64,000 nt of DNA from Stenotrophomonas sp. 169 (GTDB taxonomy: Bacteria; Pseudomonadota; Gammaproteobacteria; Xanthomonadales; Xanthomonadaceae), in NCBI RefSeq assembly GCF_014621775.1, contig NZ_CP061204.1, positions 2,376,501 through 2,440,500 of the forward strand, read 5' to 3'. Both the position numbers and the translations under genes were made by a program. Each line of letters begins with the position of its first letter. The stretch's first letter is position 1. Under the pieces are notes generated by a model that did not search any database, was not told where the DNA came from, and worked only from the letters and a program-made list of their open reading frames with translations. Shown piece after piece: positions 51,644 to 63,417 of this stretch.

Positions 51644-53236
51644 TCAGGGCGTGGCGGTGGCCAGACTGTAACGGGTGTTCGCCGTGAACACCGATCCATC
51701 CGGCTGGGTCGCACGCACATCGACTTTGTGCTCGCCGACCGCCAGATCGGTGGGCAGTGCGCCGCGCCACAGATGCGGCGACGCCGTGGCTTCAGGGGAC
51801 CGGTCGTAACCGCGCAACGTCGTCGCCAGGTCATCGGCCACGTTCTCCTGCTGCAGCCGCGGATCGCCTTGCCGCACCTGCTTCATCGGCTGCCATGCAC
51901 CACCGTCGACGCGGAACTCCACCCGGGTGGCATCCTCGCCCATGTACACATTGGCGAACACGCCCCACGCCGGATACGCACCCTGGCGCAGTACCTTCGG
52001 TGCATGCAGGCCGATCTGGTCGGTGTCGGCTGCACCCGCCACACGGTACTGCAGGCGATAGCTGCCGTTGCCGGCAACATCCAGCAGCGCATAGCCCTTT
52101 GGCGTGCCATCACTCATCGTGCTGTCCGGCACGCCATGACGGTCTTTCACCCCCGACCAGAACGCGCCGCAGTTCGCGCCTACGTTGTACTCGTGCAGCG
52201 GTTTTTCGCCGTGCCAGCCGTCGGCAGCGGCATGATAATAGTGCTGCTGGGTGTGGCTGTGGCCGCTCAGCACCAGCACATTGCTGAAATCCTTCAGCAG
52301 GTCGAACAGGCGCTGGCGGTCAGCGTGACGGAACGTCTCGCGCCCCGGTGCCGCGTCGAACAGCGGGATATGCATGCCCAGCACCAACAGCCGATCGTGG
52401 CGCAGGCCCTTCAGATACTGTGCGATGAAGGCGAACTGGTCTTCGCGCAGCCCTCCGATGTAGGTCGGCTTGGCATTCGGGTCATAGACCACGTCGTCGA
52501 GGAACAGGAAGCTGGCACCGCCCTCCTCCACCGCATAGGTGTCCGGGCCGTACACGGCGCGCCAGCTGTCCAGCGAATGGGCATCCGTGGCGGCATCGAA
52601 GTCCAGATCATGGTTGCCCGGCACGTGGAACCACGGCACGCCCATCTGTGTGGTGACCTTGTTGATCGCCGGGTACAACGACAGGTCGTCGTTGACGATG
52701 TCACCCAGCGTCGTGCCCAGGCGTGCCTTGGTCCGGCCCGCGAGCGGCTTGACGATCGACTGCTCGTAGTACCCGATGTCGCGCAACGTGGCGGTCTGCG
52801 GGTCGGTGAACACCAGCATCTGGAAGCCGCGCCGAACGTCATGCTTGTCCGGTGTCAGCGCGAAATCGTAGGCATTGACCGGTGTGACCGTCGGCGCGAT
52901 ACCGTTGTACTTCAGCGCAGGCGAACCCTGTGGCGCGTAGTGCCGCCAGAACGCCGGCAGGCCATCGGGGCCGACCGCCATCCGGTAGCCATCGGGCTTG
53001 ATGATGAAGACCGTGTCACCCGCTTCGACCGGCAGGCGATAGCTGCCGTCGGCGCTGGTACGCACGATGCTGCGGCCATTGGAGACCTGCACACCGCCCA
53101 TGCCCGGGTCGGTGGCACCGCGCCCCGGCTTGCCGTCGCGGTCCTGGTATACCCGTCCACTGACGGTGATCGCATCTGCGAATGCGGGCGCGCTGGTGAG
53201 CAGCAGGCAGCACAGCCAGGCGGCAGAGAGTTTCAT
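51644..53236 (-). CDS. Calcineurin-like metallophosphoesterase, exported
   Basis: A 530-residue secreted or periplasmic phosphoesterase. I start at MKLSAAWLCCLLLTSAPAFA (53236), a clear signal peptide; the frame stays open upstream through low-complexity repeat DNA, which I do not count. Domains: N-terminal Cna-B-like beta domain (VSGRVYQDRDGKPG), metallophosphoesterase core from about residue 140 (MLVFTDPQ, TTLGDIVNDD, VPGNHDLDF, LVLGMHIPLFD, VLSGHSHTQQHYY, covering the metal-binding motifs) and a C-terminal beta domain (FRVDGGAWQPM). The first motif reads FTDPQ where most have D-x-H, usual for this subgroup. Its position before GH92 suggests it clears phosphate from mannosides. Confidence 0.88.
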   Translation of the reverse strand: MKLSAAWLCCLLLTSAPAFADAITVSGRVYQDRDGKPGRGATDPGMGGVQVSNGRSIVRTSADGSYRLPVEAGDTVFIIKPDGYRMAVGPDGLPAFWRHYAPQGSPALKYNGIAPTVTPVNAYDFALTPDKHDVRRGFQMLVFTDPQTATLRDIGYYEQSIVKPLAGRTKARLGTTLGDIVNDDLSLYPAINKVTTQMGVPWFHVPGNHDLDFDAATDAHSLDSWRAVYGPDTYAVEEGGASFLFLDDVVYDPNAKPTYIGGLREDQFAFIAQYLKGLRHDRLLVLGMHIPLFDAAPGRETFRHADRQRLFDLLKDFSNVLVLSGHSHTQQHYYHAAADGWHGEKPLHEYNVGANCGAFWSGVKDRHGVPDSTMSDGTPKGYALLDVAGNGSYRLQYRVAGAADTDQIGLHAPKVLRQGAYPAWGVFANVYMGEDATRVEFRVDGGAWQPMKQVRQGDPRLQQENVADDLATTLRGYDRSPEATASPHLWRGALPTDLAVGEHKVDVRATQPDGSVFTANTRYSLATATP

Positions 53237-53320
53237 GGTTGGACAGGTCCAGATCAAAGTCGGGGGCATTGTAAAGCCCATGCCCCGTACAAGCGTGTTA
53301 CGCGCGCCGATGTCGGCCGC

Positions 53321-53385
53321 CTCTGCGGCCTCTGCCTCCGCGTCGGCCTCTGCGGCTGCGCCCGCGGCTGCGGCTGCGGCTGCGG
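53321..53385. repeat. Imperfect CTGCGG hexamer repeat
   Basis: A run of CTGCGG/CTCTGC units upstream of the phosphoesterase gene, with three clean GGCTGC copies at its 3' end just before a GTAG element. Such a microsatellite can vary in length between strains. The 288-bp gap between phosphoesterase and hisIE holds nothing else that I recognise apart from the REP pair. Confidence 0.6.
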
Positions 53386-53440
53386 TAGAGCCGACTTCAG
53401 TCGGCTGCTTGTATCCGCAGGCGACTGAAGTCGGCTCTAC
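53385..53440. repeat. Dimeric GTAG-type REP, 19-bp perfect arms
   Basis: 53385-53403 begins GTAGAGCCGACTTCAGTCG and is perfectly mirrored at 53422-53440, which ends CTAC. Each arm is itself a palindrome, so the unit can fold as two hairpins or one long one. It lies at the 3' side of the his operon. Confidence 0.8.
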
Positions 53441-53524
53441 CAGATCCACACCACGTCCGAGAAGGGTCCGTTCGTGATCATCCGCACGCCGGTGGGAGGC
53501 GAACAACCCACCAGCCCAAACAAC

Positions 53525-54160
53525 TCAGCGGTGCCGTGCCTGCAGCAGATCGCGCACATCCTGCAGGCCCAGCCCGCGTGCCCGCAGCAGCACCAGCAGA
53601 TGGAACACCAGATCGGCGGCTTCGCCCAGCAGTTCTTCGTCACCCTGCGCAACTGCGGCCAACGCGGCTTCCACTCCCTCCTCACCCACCTTCTGGGCGA
53701 TGCGGCGGATGCCCCCATCGAACAGCGACGTCGTATAGCTGCCCGCCGGGCGCTCCGCTTCGCGTGTACGCACCAGCTGGTCAAGTTCGCCGATGAAGTC
53801 CTTTGCGGCCTGCGGGAAGCAGCTTTCCGCACCGGTGTGGCAGGTCGGTCCTGCCGGCCGCGCCATCACCAGCAACGTATCCGCGTCGCAGTCAACCGCG
53901 ATGGACTGCACCACCAGCACGTTGCCGGACTGCTCGCCCTTGGTCCACAAGCGATCCTTGCTACGGCTGAAGAAGGTCATGTGACCGTGCTGCAGAGTGA
54001 CCTGCAGTGACTCGGCGTTGACGTAACCCAGCATCAGCACCTGCAGGCTGTCGGCATCCTGCACGACGGCAGGCAGCAGCCCATCGCCCTTGCCCCAGTC
54101 CAGGCCCGCCAGCGCCGCACGGTCGGGCAGCACGTTGATGATTGCAACTTCAGTAGACAT
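53525..54160 (-). CDS. hisI: Bifunctional phosphoribosyl-AMP cyclohydrolase / phosphoribosyl-ATP pyrophosphatase
   Basis: A 211-residue fusion (HisIE) carrying out steps 2 and 3 of histidine synthesis. The HisI part (to about residue 120) has [15 protein letters not shown], metal and zinc ligands in [12 protein letters not shown] and CHTGAESCF. The HisE part has [18 protein letters not shown] and [15 protein letters not shown]. It is the last gene of the operon and overlaps hisF by 11 bases. Confidence 0.96.
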
Positions 54161-54926
54161 CCCGCACCTCGATCTGTTGTTCGCGCAGATAGCGCTTCAA
54201 TTCGGGAATGGCGATGGCGCCGCTGTGGAACACGCTGGCGGCCAAGGCCCCATCCACGTCCGCCTGGTCGAAGACCTGGGCGAAATGTTCCGGCGTACCT
54301 GCCCCACCCGATGCGATCAGCGGCACGTGGCAGGCCGCGCGCGCATGGCGCAGCTGCTCCACGTCATACCCGCGCCGCACCCCATCACTGTCCATGCAGT
54401 TCAGCACGATCTCACCGGCACCGCGCTGCTGCACCTCACGCACCCAGTCCAGCGTACGCAGCGCCACCGCCTGCGTCTTGGACGGGTCGCCGGTGAAGCG
54501 GCGCACCCGCCACTGTCCGTCGGGCTCGCGCACCGAATCGATACCCACCACCACGCATTGCACGCCAAATGCCTCGGCCAGCTCGCTGATCAGCTCAGGC
54601 CGACCCAATGCCGGGGAGTTGATCGAGATCTTGTCCGCACCGGCATGCAGCACGCACCGCGCGGTCTCCACGTCACTGATGCCGCCAGCAACGCAGAACG
54701 GGATGTCGATCAGCCGCGCGATGCGCTCGATCCATGCGACGTCCACGCTGCGCCCGTCCGGGCTGGCACCGATGTCATAGAACACCAGCTCGTCCGCGCC
54801 CTGATCGCGATAGCGAAGCGCCAGTTCGGCGATATCGCCCATGTCCACGTGGTCGCGGAAGCGCACGCCTTTCACCACGCGGCCATCGCGTACGTCCAGG
54901 CACGGAATGATGCGGCGACTCAACAT
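54150..54926 (-). CDS. hisF: Imidazole glycerol phosphate synthase, cyclase subunit
   Basis: A 258-residue TIM-barrel subunit that uses ammonia from HisH to form imidazole glycerol phosphate and AICAR. It begins [20 protein letters not shown] with the catalytic Asp; the second catalytic Asp is in [10 protein letters not shown], and phosphate sites are [12 protein letters not shown] and [14 protein letters not shown]. It overlaps hisA by seven and hisIE by 11 bases. Confidence 0.97.
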
Positions 54927-55654
54927 GCCAGTGCCTCGGCCAGGTCCATGCGCTGCTCCAGCAGCGCCTTGCCCAGGATCGCGCCGCTGCAGCCTGCCGC
55001 TCGCGCGGCGACCACATCGGACACGTCGCGGATGCCACCGGAGGCCTGGATCGCGACGCCGGGCAGCAGCGCGGCGAGGTGCCGATAGAGGTCGATGTTG
55101 GGTCCGGCCAGCATGCCGTCACGGGCGATGTCCGTGCACAGCAGGTGGCGCATCCCGGCGGCAGCGTAACGCTGCGCCAGCGCATCCAGGGTGACACCGG
55201 CATTCTCGGTCCAGCCATGGATCGGCAGCTGCCAGGTGCCCGCCTCATCCTGGCGGGCGTCCAGCGCGATCGTGATGCGTTCGGCGCCGAACTCCGCCAG
55301 CCAGCCGATCACCGCCTCCGGCTCACGCACGGCCAGCGACCCCACCACGACGCGGCTCGCGCCTGCGTCAAGGATACGTACCACGTCATCGCGGCCGCGC
55401 ACGCCGCCGCCGGTCTGCACGTCCAACCCAGCCTCGGCACGGATCTGCCTCAGCAGCGGTGCCAGCGTGTAGCCACCGGCGCGTGCAGCGTCCAGATCCA
55501 CCAGATGCATCCAGCCCGCGCCCTGTGCGGCGAAGGCCTGCGCACGCGGAAGCGGATCATCGCCGTAACGGGTTTCCTGTGCGTAGTCGCCCTGGCGCAG
55601 GCGCACCACGCGGCCTTCGCGGATATCAAGGGCGGGATAGACAATGAAGCTCAT
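54920..55654 (-). CDS. hisA: Phosphoribosyl-formimino-AICAR-phosphate isomerase
   Basis: A 244-residue TIM barrel paralogous to HisF, performing the Amadori isomerisation (ProFAR to PRFAR). It begins [21 protein letters not shown] with the catalytic Asp. The second Asp is in [16 protein letters not shown], and the phosphate-binding glycines are in [12 protein letters not shown] and [11 protein letters not shown]. It overlaps hisH by ATGA and hisF by seven bases. Confidence 0.97.
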
Positions 55655-56253
55655 GCGGCGGTGTCCTGCAGGAAGTTTTGCAACAGCAATGCGCCGGTAT
55701 CACCGGAACGCTCGGGGTGATACTGCGCACCGAAATAGCGACCATGCTCGACCACCGCGCTGAACAGCCCGCCATGGTCACAGGCGGCGACCGTGTGGGC
55801 ATTCAAGGGCGCCGCGTAGCTGTGCACGAAGTAGGCACTGGCGCGCTCCGGGATACCGCGCAGCAACGGCGACTCACGCAGCGGCAACAGGCGGTTCCAG
55901 CCCATGTGCGGCACGCGTATGCCGGTGGCGGGCACCAGCTTGCGCACCGTGCCGGGGATCAGTCCCAGCGTCTCGACGCCGCCCTCTTCCGATCGCTCGA
56001 ACAGCAACTGCATGCCCAGACAAATGCCCAACAACGGAACCTGCAACTGACGCAGTGGCTCGAACAGGCCTTGCCCATGCAGCCGCTGCATTGCCGGCAC
56101 CGCGGCGCCCACGCCAGGCAGGATCACCCGTGTTGCGCCGCGCAGTTCGTCGGCGTTGCGCACCAGGCGCACCTCTGCACCCAGACGTTCCAGCGCGTAG
56201 CGGACCGAGCCGAGGTTGGCCCCGCCCGCATCGATCAGCGCAACGGCACTCAC
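55651..56253 (-). CDS. hisH: Imidazole glycerol phosphate synthase, glutaminase subunit
   Basis: A 200-residue class I amidotransferase supplying ammonia to HisF. The nucleophile Cys is in [19 protein letters not shown], and the His/Glu pair in [13 protein letters not shown]. The start codon is GTG, overlapping the hisB stop as GTGA; the other starts in this operon are ATG. The stop overlaps hisA by ATGA. Confidence 0.97.
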
Positions 56254-57323
56254 AGCGCCCCCTTGGTGCTGGGCAGGTCGGTGCCCTGGCGGGCCACGGC
56301 CGTGCGCAGTGCACGGGCGAGTGCCTTGAAACAGGCTTCGACCTTATGGTGATCGTTGTCGCCGCGCACCTGCAGGTTGAGGTTCAACCCGGCCGCGTCG
56401 CACAGAGAACGGAAGAAGTGCGGCACCAGTTCGGTTGGCAGGTCACCCACCCGCTCGCGCTTGAACTCGCCGTCGAAGACGAAATACGGACGGCCGCTGA
56501 AATCCAGCGCCGCACTGGCCAGGGTTTCGTCCATCGGCAGGGTGAAGCCGTAGCGGCCGATGCCCCGCTTGTCGCCCAGCGCCTCGCGCAGCGCCTGGCC
56601 CAGCGCAAGCCCCGTATCTTCGATGGTGTGGTGCTCGTCGATATGCAGGTCACCTTCGGTCTGGATCCGCACCGAGATGCCGCCGTGCTTGCCGATCTGT
56701 TCCAGCATGTGGTCGAAGAACGGCAGGCCCGTGTGTATCTGCGGCTCCGCTGCTTTGTCCAGATCCAGCTCCACGCGGATGCGCGTTTCCTTGGTGTTGC
56801 GCTGGAGGACAGCCGTGCGCGGTGCATCGGCAAGCGCGTGTGCGATACCGGGCCAGTCCCACTCGCCACCGAACTCTTCGGTACGTAACTGGAAGCCGCG
56901 GATGTTGAGGTTGTCGGCGAACTCGATATCGGTGGGGCGGTCGCCCACCATCGCCGAGCGTGTCCAGTCGATGCTCCGGTCCTGCAGATACCGCGTCATC
57001 AGGCCGATGCCGGGCTTGCGCGTGGGCAGGTTCTCATGCGGCCACGAACTGTCGATCAGTACGTCACGGAACCGGACGCCTTGGCTTTCGAAGACGTGCA
57101 TCATCAGCGCGTGCGGTGGATCGAAAACAGCGCGTGGATAGCTGTCGCTGCCGAGCCCATCCTGGTTGCTGACGATCACGAACTGCCAGCCCGCATCGCG
57201 CAGCCGGATCAGGGCAGGAATCACGTCCGGCACGAAGCGCAGCTTCTCGTAAGCGTCGATCTGGTGGTCGGCCGGTTCCTCGATCAGGGTGCCGTCGCGG
57301 TCGATGAACAGAATGGGGGTCAT
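56250..57323 (-). CDS. hisB: Bifunctional histidinol-phosphatase / imidazoleglycerol-phosphate dehydratase
   Basis: A 357-residue fusion. The N-terminal HAD phosphatase (to about 165) has [27 protein letters not shown] and [14 protein letters not shown]. The C-terminal dehydratase has [34 protein letters not shown] and a His-rich [12 protein letters not shown] manganese site. The fused form is typical of gammaproteobacteria. Four-base overlaps at both ends. Confidence 0.97.
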
Positions 57324-58414
57324 GCGGCAGCCCTCCGGGCCGAGAGCGCGGCAAGCACGCGTTGGTTTTCTTCAGGACTGCCGATGCTGATCCGCAGCGC
57401 GTCGCCCAGCTGCGGCGCTGCGCGCTGGTCGCGCACGACGATGTCGGCCGCCAACAGGGCATCGAACGCGGCCTGCGCATCATCAAAACGCACCAGCAGG
57501 TAGTTGCCGGCAGACCGGTAGACGCGGCGCACGCCGGGGGCTGCCTGCAAGGCATGGAACAGGCGCTCGCGCTCGGACACGACGCCGGCGATCCGGTCAC
57601 TGGTCTTCGCCAGTACCGCAGGCTGCAGCGCAGCCACCGCCAGTTCCGCACACGGCTGGGGCACGGGATACGGCGCTTGGCAGCGGCGCAGCACGGCAAT
57701 GAGCTCGGGCGCTGCAATCAGCGTACCGATGCGCGCCGCGGCCAACGCGTGCGCCTTGGACAGCGTGCGCAGCACGGCGATGTTGGGGTGCGCTGCCAGC
57801 AACGCAGTGGCCGAGGCCTGGCTGCTGTACTCGATGTAGGCCTCGTCCACCACCACTATGGCCTGGCCCTGCAATGCCTGTGCAGTACGCACGACATCCG
57901 CGGTGGCGATTTCGCTGCCGGCCGGATTCGAAGGGGAGCACAGGAACACCAGACGCGCACGATGTTCGCGTGCCAGGTCGATCACTGCGTCGATATCCAC
58001 CTGCAGCCCCGCAGGCGCATCCAGCAGCGGAATCTCCAGCAGCGGCGCACCCTGCAGGCGTGCGCACACGGCATACATGCCGAACACGGGCGGTGTCACC
58101 AGCACGGAATCGATGCCGGGACGGCAGAATGCACGCACCAGCAGGTCGATGGCCTCATCGCTGCCGCGGCCGACCAGCAACTGCGCGGGCTGCACGCCGT
58201 ACACATCGGCAAGTGCCCGCAGCAGTGCCGGCGGCTGCGGATCGGGATAGCGTCGGCTGCTGCCCTTCGCATCGGCCGGGTTCGGCCACGCCGATTCGTT
58301 GGCGTTCAACCAGACCGAGCCCTGCACGGCGCTGCTGCGCGCCGAACTGTAGCCGGCGAAGGACTGCAGGTCCGGGCGCAGCAGGTCCAGCACCGCCTGT
58401 ATGCCCTCGCTCAT
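57320..58414 (-). CDS. hisC: Histidinol-phosphate aminotransferase
   Basis: A 364-residue class II PLP aminotransferase. [11 protein letters not shown] near the start is the HisC N-terminal motif. PLP-binding features are [22 protein letters not shown] and the Schiff-base Lys in [16 protein letters not shown]. It makes histidinol phosphate from imidazole acetol phosphate. Overlaps of four bases with hisD and hisB. Confidence 0.96.
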
Positions 58415-59706
58415 GCCAGGGCCTCCATGCGCAGTGCCACGGCACGCTCATGCGCGTCCAGGCCCTCCGCACTGGCAAGAATGCGCGCGCAACCGCCGAT
58501 CGCCGTGATGCCTTCAGCGCTGGCGCTCTGCACACTGATGGTGTTCTGGAAACTGGCCACGCTGACCCCGCTCCAGGCGCGTGCCGCACCGGCCGTTGGC
58601 AGCACATGGTTGGTGCCACTGCAGTAGTCACCCAGTGCTTCGGGGGTGTAGTCACCCAGGAACACCGAACCGGCGGCCTGCACCTGGCCCAGCCACGCAC
58701 GCGGTTCGCGCAGCGCCAGGATCAAGTGCTCCGGCGCATAGCGGTTGCTGATATCGAAGGCATCCTGCAGGCGATCCACCTGGATCAACCGCGATGCCGA
58801 CAAGGCCTGGCGGGCAATGGTTTCGCGCGGCAGCAGCGCGACCTGGCGCTCCACCTCCGCTTCCACCGCCTGCAGCAGCGCCTCGTCATCGGTGAGCAGC
58901 AGCACCTGGGAATCCGGGCCGTGCTCGGCCTGCGACAGCAGGTCTGCGGCGACGAAGGCCGCGTTGGCGCCGGCATCGGCGATCACCAGCACTTCGGACG
59001 GGCCGGCCGGCATATCGATCGCCACCCTGCCGTCCTGCGCGACCTGCTGCTTGGCCTCGGTGACGAAGCTGTTGCCGGGGCCGAACAGTTTGTCGCACGC
59101 AGGCACGCTGGCCGTTCCGTACGCCATCGCAGCGATCGCCTGCGCGCCGCCCAGCTTGAACACGCGTTGCACACCGGTCAGACGCGCCGCGACCAGCACC
59201 GCCGGGTCAGCACTGCCATCAGCACGCGGCGGCGTGCACAGCACGACCTGCGGGCAACCGGCCAGCGCTGCCGGCACGCCGAGCATCAGCGCGGTGGATG
59301 GCAACGGGGCACTGCCCGCAGGCACGTACAGACCCACCCGGCCGATCGGCCGGATCATCCGCTCACAGTGCACGCCGGGGGCGGTTTCCACCGAATAGCC
59401 CTGGCTCATGCCGGCTTCGTGGAAGCGCGTGATGCGTGCCGCCGCTTCTTCCATCGCCGCACGCAGCGCGGCAGGCACGGCCTGCTCGGCGGCGTCGAAC
59501 TCGGCCACCGATACCTCGATGTCATCGAGCTGCACCCGGTCGAAACGCGCGGTGATCGCGCGCAGCGCGTCATCGCCGTCTGCACGCACCTGCGCGATCA
59601 ATGCCGCCACGGCCTCGCGCGTCTGCGCGGCAACGGCCTGCACGGGGCGCTGCAGCGCGTCGCTGCGCGACAGTTCATCCAGTTGGGACCACATCAGACG
59701 ATTCAT
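58411..59706 (-). CDS. hisD: Histidinol dehydrogenase
   Basis: A 431-residue zinc enzyme that oxidises histidinol to histidine in two NAD-linked steps. The start [19 protein letters not shown] (59706) overlaps the hisG stop by ATGA, which is better than an upstream ATG lying inside hisG. Conserved are [52 protein letters not shown], the metal and catalytic residues in [13 protein letters not shown] and APEHLIL, and a final SGTNHVLPT. Confidence 0.97.
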
Positions 59707-60614
59707 GCCAGCGACCGCTCCACGCTCAATACCATCAGGCCCTGCGCGCCTGCGCGCTCCAGTTCTTCCATCCGCTGCCACGACAGCGGCCCCGGGCACA
59801 TGGTCTGCAACCTCAGCGCACCGTCATCGGCGGGCAACCGCACCAGCGGCTCGGCATCGGCCAGCAGTGTTTCCAGTGCCGCGATGCGCGACGGATCGGC
59901 GCGGAACATCAGCAGCTTGCGATCCTGCACCTGCACCACGCCATCCAGCCTGCGCAGCAGCATGGCCAGCAACGCGCCGCGCGCGTCGTCGGGGGCATGC
60001 ACGGCGCCGGCCAGGACGGCTTCGCTCTCCAGCAGGGTCTCCACCGGCTTGAGCTGGTTGGCGCGCAAGGTGCCGCCGCTGGACACCAGGTCGCAGATCA
60101 GTTCGGCAGTTCCCAAGCGCGGTGCGATCTCCACCGAGCCGGACAGTTCGACCACCTGCGCGTCGATTCCGCGCGCAGCAAGCCAGTCTTTCAGGATGGC
60201 CGGATAGCTGGTGGCGATGCGGGTGCCGGCCACCTGCGCCGGACCCTCCCACTCCCATTCTTCGGGGACGGCCAGCATCAACCGGCAGGCACCGAAGCCC
60301 AACCCGCGCAGTGCCTGGAAGGCCGGCTTCAGGCCGCGCTGCACGCGCGCCGCGCCCTGCTCGTCCAGCTCGTTGCGGCCGACGATGCCAAGGTCGCACA
60401 CGCCATCGGCGATCAGCCCGGGGATGTCATCGTCGCGCACCAGCAGCAGATCCACCGGCAGTGATTCGCCATAGCAGAACAGCTTGTCGCGGCTCTCGCG
60501 CCAGCTCAGGCCACACGCGCTGAGCAGGTTGCGCGCGGGTTCGGCCAAGCGCCCGTTCTTCTGGATGGCGATACGCAGCCGGTCTCGTGCCGGGGCTGCC
60601 TGGAGTGCACTCAT
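59703..60614 (-). CDS. hisG: ATP phosphoribosyltransferase, long form
   Basis: A 303-residue first enzyme of histidine synthesis, condensing ATP with PRPP. I start at [19 protein letters not shown] (60614), with AAGAGA upstream. The catalytic part has [13 protein letters not shown] and the PRPP loop [17 protein letters not shown]. The last 80 or so residues form the ACT-like regulatory domain of the long HisG type, so histidine feedback on the enzyme is expected, with no need for HisZ. It is the first enzyme gene of the operon, 40 bp after the TrpR-type regulator. Confidence 0.96.
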
Positions 60615-60654
60615 GGGGGAAAGTCTCTTGGAATTCAGGGGTGGAGCATTCGGT

Positions 60655-60963
60655 TCAGCGCGTGGCGAGGCGCGCGATGGCGGCAGCGTAGCCACGGTGG
60701 CCATGCTCCAGTGAACGGGCCACGCGACCGGTAGTGGTCACGCTGACGCCGGTGCGCTCATGGATCTCGCGGTACGGCACGCCCTGCTGCAGCAACGGCA
60801 CCACTTTCCAGCGGTCGGCAATGGCTTCCAGTTCCGCCGGGGTGCACAGGTCACGCAGGAACGCGGCGACCTCCCCGACGTCATCCAGCGCGGCGAATGC
60901 GTCAGCGAGCGATGCAAGGTCGGCCTGGGTGTCTTTCGGGTTCGGGGCAGGACGGGCTTTCAT
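60655..60963 (-). CDS. TrpR/YerC-family regulator of the histidine operon (HisR-type)
   Basis: A 102-residue all-helical protein of the TrpR-related YerC/YecD family. The middle reads [18 protein letters not shown], the standard YerC motif. The DNA-binding helix-turn-helix is [20 protein letters not shown], with SLEHGHRGY after it, as in TrpR relatives. It is the first gene in front of hisG, and a TrpR-like operator and a promoter lie directly upstream of it. A histidine-responsive repressor called HisR has been proposed for this family in xanthomonads from comparative genomics, and the arrangement here fits an autoregulated repressor of the whole run. Confidence 0.88.
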
Positions 60964-60981
60964 GGGATCGCAGCAGGTATC

Positions 60982-61005
60982 AATGTAATAGCGTGCTAGT
61001 ACATT
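60982..61005. promoter_or_regulatory. TrpR-like operator of the histidine operon
   Basis: A 24-bp palindrome: AATGTAATAGCG and its mirror TGCTAGTACATT agree at 10 of 12 positions. The inner 18 bases (60985-61002) match the textbook TrpR operator GTACTAGTTAACTAGTAC at 13 of 18 positions, with both half-sites in register. It covers the -10/start region of the promoter and ends 19 bases before the regulator ATG. Confidence 0.75.
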
Positions 61006-61030
61006 ATCGCAAACCCCGGTGACCGGTCAA
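61003..61030 (-). promoter_or_regulatory. Promoter of the regulator-his operon
   Basis: On the minus strand: -35 TTGACC (61025-61030), 16-base spacer, -10 GATAAT (61003-61008). This is the best sigma-70 promoter I found in the window. The -10 overlaps the palindromic operator, so repressor and RNA polymerase would compete. Confidence 0.7.
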
Positions 61031-61039
61031 ATCCCGTGC

Positions 61040-61065
61040 AAAAAAAACCCACCGGTGAAGGTGGG
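61040..61065 (-). terminator. Rho-independent terminator downstream of hisS
   Basis: On the minus strand: CCCACC, loop TTCACC, GGTGGG, then eight T. It stands between the hisS stop (61134) and the his promoter, insulating the operon from hisS transcription. Confidence 0.8.
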
Positions 61066-61088
61066 GTGGTTCGGCGGCACGTGTCTTG

Positions 61089-61119
61089 GGGATCCCTCTC
61101 ACCGAGCGAAAGGGATCCC
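61089..61119 (-). other. 9-bp hairpin just after hisS
   Basis: GGGATCCCT at 61089-61097 is mirrored by AGGGATCCC at 61111-61119 with 13 bases between. It directly precedes the hisS terminator and may protect the 3' end of the mRNA. Confidence 0.45.
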
Positions 61120-61133
61120 ACCCCGGCCAACCC

Positions 61134-62531
61134 TCACGCCATGGCGCGGGCCTGCTCCAGTTCGACCTGCAGCGTGCTGGCCAGCTCGTCGCGGGATACT
61201 TCGAACTGCTGTTCGCGCAGCAGGTCTTTCACTGCCACCACGCCGCGCGCCAGCTCGTCTTCGCCGGCCAGGACGACAAAGCGGATACCCGCCTTGGCCG
61301 CGTACTGGAACTGCTTGCCGATCTTCTTCGCTTCCATCTGCACCTCGGTGTTGATGCCACCGATGCGCAGCCGGCGGGCGATGTCCAGCGACTGCGGCAT
61401 GCCCTGCTCGTCCATCAGGGCGACCAGCGCGTGCACGCTGCTGGCCTCGATCCCTTCGATCAGGCCGGCTTCGCGCAGCTGCCAGAACAGGCGGGTCAGG
61501 CCGATGGAAATGCCCACGCCCGGCAGCTTGGACCTGCTGTAGTGGCTGGCCAGGTCTTCATAGCGCCCACCCGAGCAGATCGAGCCGATCTGCGGGTGGT
61601 CGGTGAGCATCGTTTCATACACCGTGCCGGTGTAGTAATCCAGGCCGCGGGCGATGGAGAAGTTCAGGCAGTACGCCTGCTCCGGCACACCCAGCGCCTT
61701 CACCAGCTGCAGCACTTCGCGCAGCTCCGCCACGCCGGTGCGCAGCGTGTCCGTCGCCGCCGCGTCGGCCTCCAGCAGCGCCAGCTGCGCCAGTGCATCG
61801 TCGTGCCCCTGCGAGCGCACCGCCACGAAGGCAAGGATCCGCTCGACCTGATCGGCCGGGATGTTGAAGTCGGCGCCGACCAGCGTCTCGCGCACGTAGT
61901 CCGGTCCGCGCTTGTCCAGCTTGTCCACTTCCCGCAGCACGGCCAGCTGGCGTTCGCCCTCGGCTACGCCCAGGGTTTCGAAGAAGCCGCGCAGCAGCTT
62001 GCGGTTGTTCAACTGCACGGCGAAGTCACCGATGCGCAGTTCGGCGAATACCGCATGGATGACCGCCAGCACCTCCGCGTCGTAACGGATGCTGAGCGCA
62101 TCCTTGCCGATCACGTCGATGTCGCACTGGTAGAACTCACGGAAGCGCCCGCGCTGGGCCCGCTCGCCGCGGTAAACGCGCTGCATCTGGTAACGGCGGA
62201 ACGGGAACGTCAGGTCGTGTTCGTGCTCGGCCACGTAGCGGGCCAGCGGTACGGTCAGGTCGAAGCGCAGGGCCAGTTCCGGCAACGAGGCGTCCTCGGC
62301 CTGCGCTGCATTGGCCAAGGCACCGGTGGACTGGACGAAATACACCTGACGCTCGGTTTCACCACCGGATTTGGTCAGCAGCACGTCGGACAGCTCGAAC
62401 ACCGGCGTCTCCACCGGCAGGAACCCGAAGCGCTCGTAGTTGCGGCGGATGACGTCCAGCATGCGCTGGAACGCGATCTGCTCGCGCGGCAGCAGTTCCA
62501 TGATGCCGGGCGGGGTACGGGGCTTGATCAC
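61134..62531 (-). CDS. hisS: Histidyl-tRNA synthetase
   Basis: A 465-residue class II synthetase charging tRNA-His. I start at the GTG at 62531 because AGGAG lies six bases upstream; the ATG at 62564 has no ribosome site. Motif 2 is [20 protein letters not shown] and the histidine-binding stretches are [13 protein letters not shown] and [13 protein letters not shown]. The C-terminal anticodon-binding domain begins near [28 protein letters not shown] together with [16 protein letters not shown] is the wording of the eukaryotic-type HisRS branch, not the RPEGT...RYRQFHQ wording of E. coli. Gene length is slightly above the 425 residues of E. coli because of an insertion near residues 240-290. 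Confidence 0.95.
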
Positions 62532-62572
62532 GTGGGGCTCCTGCAGAAAACGGGGGAAGGGCAAGGGCGGTC

Positions 62573-62578
62573 ATTGTA
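62573..62578 (-). promoter_or_regulatory. Candidate -10 element (TACAAT) for hisS
   Basis: TACAAT on the minus strand, 42 bases before the hisS GTG, in the 142-bp gap shared with the divergent FNR-type gene. No clear -35 partner. For the divergent gene, TATCAT at 62630-62635 is the matching candidate. Confidence 0.35.
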
Positions 62579-62673
62579 GCGGCAGCGCCGCCCGCCGCGC
62601 CCGCGTCCGGGCGCATCGGCCACATGTCGTATCATGGCCACTTCCCCTCGCAGCGCGCTTTTCCCCCCACGCC

Positions 62674-63417
62674 ATGTCGCGGTTCGATTCCAGCCCTGCC
62701 GATGCCTTCCGCCCTGCCACGCCCGGCTGCTCGACATTGGACTGCATGCACTGTTCGGTACGCCATCTGGCGGTCTGCTCGGCGCTGTCACCAGAAGAAG
62801 GCCAGGCGCTGGAGGCCGTAACGGTGTCCCAGCAGGTGGCGATGGGCAGCACGCTGGCCCGCAGTGGTGAACCTCGCCACCATGTCTATACCTTGACGCA
62901 GGGCGCATTGCGGCTGGTGCGCACGCTGTCCGACGGGCGCCGGCAGATCAACGGGTTCGTCTTGCCCGGCGATTATCTGGGCCTGAGCGGCAGTGATCTC
63001 CACCGCCACGATGTCGAAGCGATCGCCGACAGCCGCGTCTGCCGCGTATCGGTGGCCCATATGCGCGAGCTGCGTGATCGCTACCCGCACCTGGAGCGAA
63101 AATTGTTGCAGCGTGCCTGCCAGGCGCTGGACGATGCGCAGGATGCAGCACTGTCGCTGGCACGCCTGCAGCCACCGGAGAAAGTGGCCGATTTCCTGCT
63201 GCGGCTGGCCGAGCGCGAAGTGCGCCTGGGGGGCGTGGCCCTGCGTGTCACCCTGCCGATGGGGCGTGGAGACATCGCCGATCATCTCGGGCTGACGATG
63301 GAAACCGTCAGCCGCACCTTCACCCGCCTTCGCCAGCAGGCGCTGATCGCCCTGCCCCATTTGAACGTCGTGGAGATTCTCGACGAACCCGCCCTGCGTC
63401 GACTGGCCACCGGCTGA
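62674..63417 (+). CDS. FNR/CRP-family transcriptional regulator with an Fe-S-type cysteine set
   Basis: A 247-residue regulator. N-terminal cysteines are at 19, 24, 27 and 35 (CSTLDCMHCSVRHLAVC), and a central Cys is at 123 (DSRVCRVSVAH), the position equivalent to Cys122 of E. coli FNR. The cyclic-nucleotide-like beta roll follows (YTLTQGALRLVRTLSDGRRQ). The C-terminal helix-turn-helix GDIADHLGLTMETVSRTFTR keeps the Glu-Ser-Arg of FNR that read TTGAT-ATCAA sites. It is therefore probably an oxygen sensor of FNR type. The Cys spacing C-x2-C-x7-C differs from E. coli (x2, x5). It is divergent from hisS; target genes are not indicated by the neighbours. Confidence 0.88.
   Translation: MSRFDSSPADAFRPATPGCSTLDCMHCSVRHLAVCSALSPEEGQALEAVTVSQQVAMGSTLARSGEPRHHVYTLTQGALRLVRTLSDGRRQINGFVLPGDYLGLSGSDLHRHDVEAIADSRVCRVSVAHMRELRDRYPHLERKLLQRACQALDDAQDAALSLARLQPPEKVADFLLRLAEREVRLGGVALRVTLPMGRGDIADHLGLTMETVSRTFTRLRQQALIALPHLNVVEILDEPALRRLATG

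Follow-up and report, generated by a model that had tools for sequence, protein, structure and literature searches.

A predicted HisR operator with putative tandem half-sites at the histidine operon of Stenotrophomonas sp. 169

A HisR regulon has been predicted for Proteobacteria, Xanthomonadales included (Ashniev et al. 2022, PMC9413887), and, going by the available text of that paper, autoregulation of the his operon by HisR in Xanthomonadales is already in print as a prediction. According to the same text, the motif of gamma- and alphaproteobacteria is TGTAnTArnnnnyTnTTACA, a 20-bp palindrome whose centre is unspecified, and the Firmicutes consensus cacTTTAnnnnnnTAAAgtg has half-sites that differ from the proteobacterial ones. 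Histidine-dependent DNA binding is described there for one Firmicutes HisR, that of R. gnavus. Also cited there is a study of Xanthomonas oryzae pv. oryzicola (Su et al. 2018) implicating a TrpR-like gene in control of the his operon in which it lies, a likeness to the present locus; by this account the sites and the effector were not studied. As far as the available part of PMC6337780 goes, the hisR of X. citri, there named trpR (XAC1827), is lowered by DSF quorum sensing along with the his genes that begin at hisG/XAC1828 (XAC1827-XAC1834 in all). Joint lowering of XAC1827 and the genes from XAC1828 onward fits one operon, and DSF is a possible second input to the X. citri his operon. Arrangement of TrpR dimers in tandem on synthetic operators has been described (PMC8745587). 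Our literature search on HisR and TrpR-like repressors of histidine genes found one HisR paper, and in the literature on tandem TrpR we recognised no HisR tandem operator, subscription papers being largely beyond the scope of both searches. Tandem TrpR dimers were reportedly also the subject of work by Lawson and Carey in 1993. HisR is not mentioned in the available part of PMC5343134.

We analyzed a 64,000-nucleotide stretch of the Stenotrophomonas sp. 169 genome, the whole of which is called the window below. It carries a histidine operon with the gene order hisR-hisG-D-C-B-H-A-F-IE, assigned with NCBIfam profiles:

60655..60963, minus strand: hisR, a 102-aa TrpR-fold repressor of the YerC/YecD family (PF01371, TIGR02531)
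59703..60614, minus strand: hisG (TIGR00070 on the open reading frame 59703-60704; the start at 60614 is our choice)
58411..59799, minus strand: hisD (TIGR00069; coordinates of the listed open reading frame, within which the true start may lie)
53525..58414, minus strand: hisC-hisB-hisH-hisA-hisF-hisIE (NCBIfam equivalogs, each above its cut-off)

Directly upstream of hisR, the promoter and a candidate operator occupy the same few dozen base pairs:

61048..61065, minus strand: terminator-like hairpin followed by a T run (one found; shuffles mean 0.2, sd 0.4)
61025..61030, minus strand: -35 box TTGACC, from the promoter scan
61003..61008, minus strand: -10 box GATAAT, separated from the -35 box by a 16-bp spacer and preceded by TG (extended -10)
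60994..60998, minus strand: likely transcription start, inside the operator, inferred from the -10 box and lying ~7 nt past it
60982-61005, minus strand: 24-bp palindrome with 10/12 complementary pairs
60984..61003, minus strand: predicted HisR operator core of 20 bp, TGTACTAGCACGCTATTACA, matching 14/14 specified bases of the published motif

An initial annotation of this DNA had described a palindrome overlapping a -10 box, with TTGACC upstream, in front of a TrpR/YerC-family gene that heads hisGDCBHAF(IE). The paired bases, the spacer and GATAAT at 61008-61003 were confirmed, as was the gene arrangement, by the TIGR02531 score and the NCBIfam order. The distance from the palindrome to the gene, given there as 19 bases, came to 18 when counted from the hisR start codon at 60963. 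The last base of GATAAT is also position 1 of the core. No other promoter-like match was found in 60800-61200 (shuffles mean 0.0, sd 0.1), and TTG is enriched at the -35 distance in 136 aligned upstream regions of the family.

The core reads 14/14 against the published gamma/alphaproteobacterial HisR consensus on one strand and 13/14 on the other. With at most one mismatch to that consensus, it is the single place in the 4.16-Mb genome (61003-60984 of the window). The locus resembles the HisR regulon as presented in the available text of PMC9413887 in that a repressor of the TrpR family leads the his operon, a site lies immediately upstream and the motif is matched in full. Symmetry alone, tried as a mark of significance for the palindrome, had to be rejected: 17 24-mers in the window have at least 10/12 pairs (10 or 11 in each, the palindrome at 60982-61005 among them), so palindromicity by itself is not above chance. 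What is above chance is the HisR motif and the conservation of the site.

The hairpin at 61048-61065 lies between hisS (61134-62564) and the hisR promoter and would part hisS from the his operon. Among the named relatives described below (best 80 of 577 confirmed candidates), 58 have hisS upstream in the same orientation, and in the other 22 no hisS was seen in the stretch covered. An open reading frame resembling the CRP/FNR family by eye (62440-63417, plus strand) is divergent from hisS. At the other end, an open reading frame that by eye resembles a secreted phosphoesterase (51644-53506, minus strand, as listed) begins 18 bases beyond hisIE and may share a transcript with the his operon.

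Conservation of the core was followed in 149 genomes of the family, our own included, leaving a second weak match in G129 out of the counts. Scores out of 14, here and in the two further genome sets below, refer to a symmetrised consensus, TGTAnTArnnnnyTAnTACA (14 bases), built from the published TGTAnTArnnnnyTnTTACA. We found hisR in 137/149 genomes (127/135 among the more complete ones) and hisG in 138/149; both genes are present in 137 and neither in 11, and the remaining genome (G030) shows hisG as a fragment, at the edge of a contig. A core site scoring 10-14 lies upstream of hisR in all 137 hisR-bearing genomes, at least 11 in 136 of them (14 in 81, 13 in 33, 12 in 17, 11 in 5 and 10 in 1). 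One mono-shuffle per upstream region gave a maximum of 10/14, reached in 10/137. The published pattern itself, at no more than one mismatch, matches in 108/149 genomes, all with hisR and none among the 12 that lack it, and misses 29/137 hisR-bearing genomes; a reversed control pattern matches in 17/149 (counted by hand). The centre, unspecified in the published motif, is conserved in the family alignment, mostly as CGCG or CACG, at 0.9-1.7 bits per position. Among the inner pairs, only positions 5/16 of the core (60999/60988) covary positively to a marked degree across the family: they are complementary in a fraction of 0.53 versus 0.38 in shuffles (z 3.7, a value that ignores relatedness).

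The named relatives, 80 in number and the best of 577 confirmed candidates, come from Stenotrophomonas, Xanthomonas, Lysobacter, Luteimonas, Pseudoxanthomonas and others, the nearest hisR among them being that of S. chelatiphaga (92%). The initial annotation would have counted loss of the palindrome in relatives of unchanged gene order against its proposal; such loss was checked for and not seen among these 80: hisG is directly downstream of hisR in 80/80, and the best cores score 14, 13, 12, 11 and 10 of 14 in 56, 18, 4, 1 and 1. Its central proposal, an autoregulated repressor of the his operon, gains support from sequence comparison through the promoter overlap, the linkage to hisR and the exact motif match. 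Setting the tandem arrangement discussed below aside, the site is very probably a HisR operator.

The lowest core scorer of the best 80 of 577, with a diverged operator, is a metagenome-assembled genome labelled Thermoanaerobaculia. It carries a xanthomonad-like hisR-hisG pair, the hisR 68% identical; misbinning of the contig or a transfer may account for it. Among the 12 family genomes lacking hisR, ten lack hisG and hisD too, and the other two (G030 and G114) keep hisD and break at a contig edge beside it. The ten without a match to any of the three genes (G002, G003, G034, G037, G047, G054, G075, G082, G102 and G142) suggest that histidine synthesis has been lost in seven genera, though two of the assemblies (G047 and G142) are incomplete, at 81% and 71%.

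In enterobacteria the his operon is known to be governed by attenuation (PMC9413887, available text), and were this the main control here the palindrome would be incidental. We consider this extremely unlikely. The leader from the likely start to the hisR start codon measures ~33 nt, which leaves no room for a His-rich leader peptide or a histidine attenuator; an Rfam search of 60500-61300 for RNA elements or attenuators, at E up to 1, gave no match; and conservation is centred on the palindrome. The his operon of this group appears to be run by repression and not by an enterobacterial attenuator, as the available text of PMC9413887 already predicts.

The identity of the repressor was judged from profiles and aligned residues. 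HisR contains the Trp_repressor domain PF01371 (E=6.6e-24, 84.2 bits, cut-off 27) and passes the YerC/YecD profile TIGR02531 (60.6 bits, cut-off 42.2). By sequence, its solved relatives are 3g1c (Eubacterium eligens), 3kor and 3frw. TrpR identity of the 102-aa protein was rejected on the score for the TrpR profile TIGR01321, 26.3 bits against a cut-off of 67.25. In TrpR, T44, R54, L41 and L43 have roles in the ligand pocket, L41 and L43 as residues lining it. We compared residues in an alignment of 11 rows reaching from HisR to E. coli TrpR, in which T41, R51, T77 and R80 of HisR are invariant through E. coli TrpR, and the TrpR columns L41, L43 and G85 hold D38, C40 and V81 in HisR. The shared residues, together with the likeness of the site to a TrpR operator already remarked on in the initial annotation (in our comparison, 13/16 specified bases of the TrpR consensus as printed in PMC9413887), would suit a true TrpR that answers to tryptophan and places the his operon under tryptophan control. 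We regard such a regulator as very improbable. Besides the profile scores, TrpR Gly85, said in print (available part of the source) to form the tryptophan pocket, is Val81 here; the genome scan with the HisR pattern found no second site at 0-1 mismatch; and hisG and hisD disappear along with hisR in 10/12 hisR-less family genomes. The changes at D38, C40 and V81 are a lead only, because the available text of PMC9413887 points to helix 2: the helix 3-4 contacts are all replaced in HisR, and acidic residues of helix 2 are indicated instead.

Returning to the predicted HisR operator, conservation continues past the 20-bp core in the flank alignment of 136 distinct upstream regions (the 137 less one duplicate). 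Numbering the core 1-20, the flank consensus is TGnrYTAA on the left (-7 to 0) and TTRRYnCR on the right (21 to 28). Each flank repeats its inner half, TGTAnTAR or YTAnTACA, in weaker form and at a shift of exactly 8 bp, and in the window the flanks correspond to two further features:

60976..60983, minus strand: proposed right outer half-site TTGATACC, 5/7, 8 bp outside the inner right half
61004..61011, minus strand: proposed left outer half-site TGCGATAA, 5/7, overlapping the extended -10 box

Judged from these comparisons, the operator appears to extend over 36 bp (60976-61011), each inner half being accompanied by a weaker half-site exactly 8 bp farther out. When the inner-half matrices were applied to the flanks of one genome for each of 50 genera, offset 8 stood out on both sides: on the right flank it scores -5.66, the other offsets -14.7 to -23.2; on the left flank it scores -1.11, the others -12.7 to -24.1. 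The left and right flanks also co-vary. Taking one genome per genus, the seven outer pairs are complementary at 2.80/7 within a genome versus 2.27 when flanks are drawn from other genera (1/2000 draws), and over all 136 rows at 3.02 versus 2.40 of 7 (0/300 draws). Sliding the seven pairs by 1-3 bases left no excess complementarity. Farther out, the pairs at -9 to -15 exceed the draws slightly when each genus contributes one genome (33/2000) but not over all rows (64/300), and a slid version of these reaches 11/300 in all rows, so the outer boundary and the null are not perfectly clean.

The published description, a plain 20-bp operator taking one dimer, would account for the left flank as -10 box and for the right flank as initially transcribed or translation-start sequence. 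It is unlikely, while still deserving serious weight. The published motif is 20 bp long; the left outer half lies partly on the extended -10 box, with which it has TAAT in common, and its conservation therefore has an alternative explanation. In most of the family the outer halves are degenerate, 5/7 or better being reached by the right in 54/136 regions and by the left in 63/136. The right outer half, unlike the left, is not confounded with the -10 box, and its signal is independent of the distance to the start codon: the mean is 4.23/7 where the start codon lies within 11 nt (n=78; TT in 66) and 3.93/7 where it lies farther or was not found (n=59; TT in 53). The covariation of the two flanks within genomes, which slid pairs do not reproduce, likewise speaks against a single dimer, as does recurrence of the 8-bp offset outside the family.

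That recurrence was seen in a class-wide sample of 229 genomes, 18 of which have a match and 14 a match over the cut-off, 3 of the 14 being in this family. The remaining 11 genomes, from nine other families, form the distant set, to which four below-cut-off matches were not counted. The best core upstream in each scores between 10 and 14 of 14, the lowest two (10 in L228 and 11 in L225) not clearly above chance, and hisG is downstream in 9/11 (within the stretch not in L224 or L236). At offset 8 the 11 distant sites average 5.36/7 on the right and 4.73/7 on the left, versus at most 3.1 at other offsets (0/5000 shuffles); the sites had been inspected by eye before scoring. E. coli TrpR, from the same Pfam family and with similar half-sites, offers a partial parallel: its trpE operator has an outer half at 8 bp, yet on one side only (6/7; other side 2/7), which counts against the tandem reading. 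The trpR operator has none (left 4, right 1 of 7), a point in favor of the one-dimer operator. E. coli TrpR differs from HisR in serving another pathway and, presumably, in its effector.

We infer that HisR dimers sit in tandem, as is known for TrpR. More generally, there is a fair probability that proteobacterial HisR operators comprise four half-sites in 8-bp register, bound cooperatively by two or three dimers, with the left outer half within the extended -10 box. The tandem mode would then be common to HisR and TrpR, perhaps from a shared ancestor, with the co-repressor and the recognition-helix residues having diverged. A conserved centre and outer half-sites 8 bp away set this locus apart from the HisR regulon in the available text of PMC9413887. 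The 8-bp tandem architecture is mentioned neither in that text nor in the literature we searched on HisR and tandem TrpR, and adds a new detail to a system of known kind.

The protein family, the operon, the overlap with the promoter, the conservation and the 8-bp outer half-sites can be read from the sequences themselves, and from them binding, repression and tandem occupancy by HisR are proposed as follows. With ample histidine, HisR dimers carrying it would occupy the -10 box together with the transcription start and shut out RNA polymerase, so that hisR and hisGDCBHAF(IE) fall silent. As histidine runs low, the repressor would come off the DNA, allowing expression of the operon. The role of histidine as co-repressor is carried over by analogy from the Firmicutes relative in R. 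gnavus. The 20-bp core would be the primary site, and the outer half-sites 8 bp out would admit one or two extra dimers in tandem, giving a full operator of ~36 bp that spans the extended -10 box to about +21. The reading as a whole, a HisR operator with histidine-dependent repression and tandem dimers on ~36 bp, seems to us moderately probable.

With one regulator, one ~36-bp operator and one operon, the locus is a compact test case, and tandem binding, if true, would provide a testable link to TrpR cooperativity. There is also a consequence for operator scoring, as 20-bp matrices omit outer halves that may set affinity. In the recognition helix, I79, A80 and T83 of TrpR correspond to V75, T76 and G79 of HisR. 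The A80 column holds Thr in 7/8 proteobacterial HisR rows of the alignment, and Ala in the remaining one (L224) and in both solved relatives included. This Thr, together with the differing proteobacterial and Firmicutes half-sites, is a basis for a specificity experiment.

A wider HisR regulon found no support in the genome scan at 2 mismatches, because the 3 places recovered elsewhere in the genome are outnumbered by 15 matches to the reversed-pattern control. One of the three (L004:1499-1522, around 1737994-1738013) is a palindrome of the form GGTG-N16-CACC, a motif known from operators of YtrA-like GntR regulators, and it lies upstream of an open reading frame that is GntR-type by eye (L004:852-1403, minus strand). 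Given that neighbor and the fit to GGTG-N16-CACC, it was rejected as a HisR target and is probably another protein's site. Sequences resembling GGTG-N16-CACC also occur among the pattern matches of two family genomes, G011 and G033.
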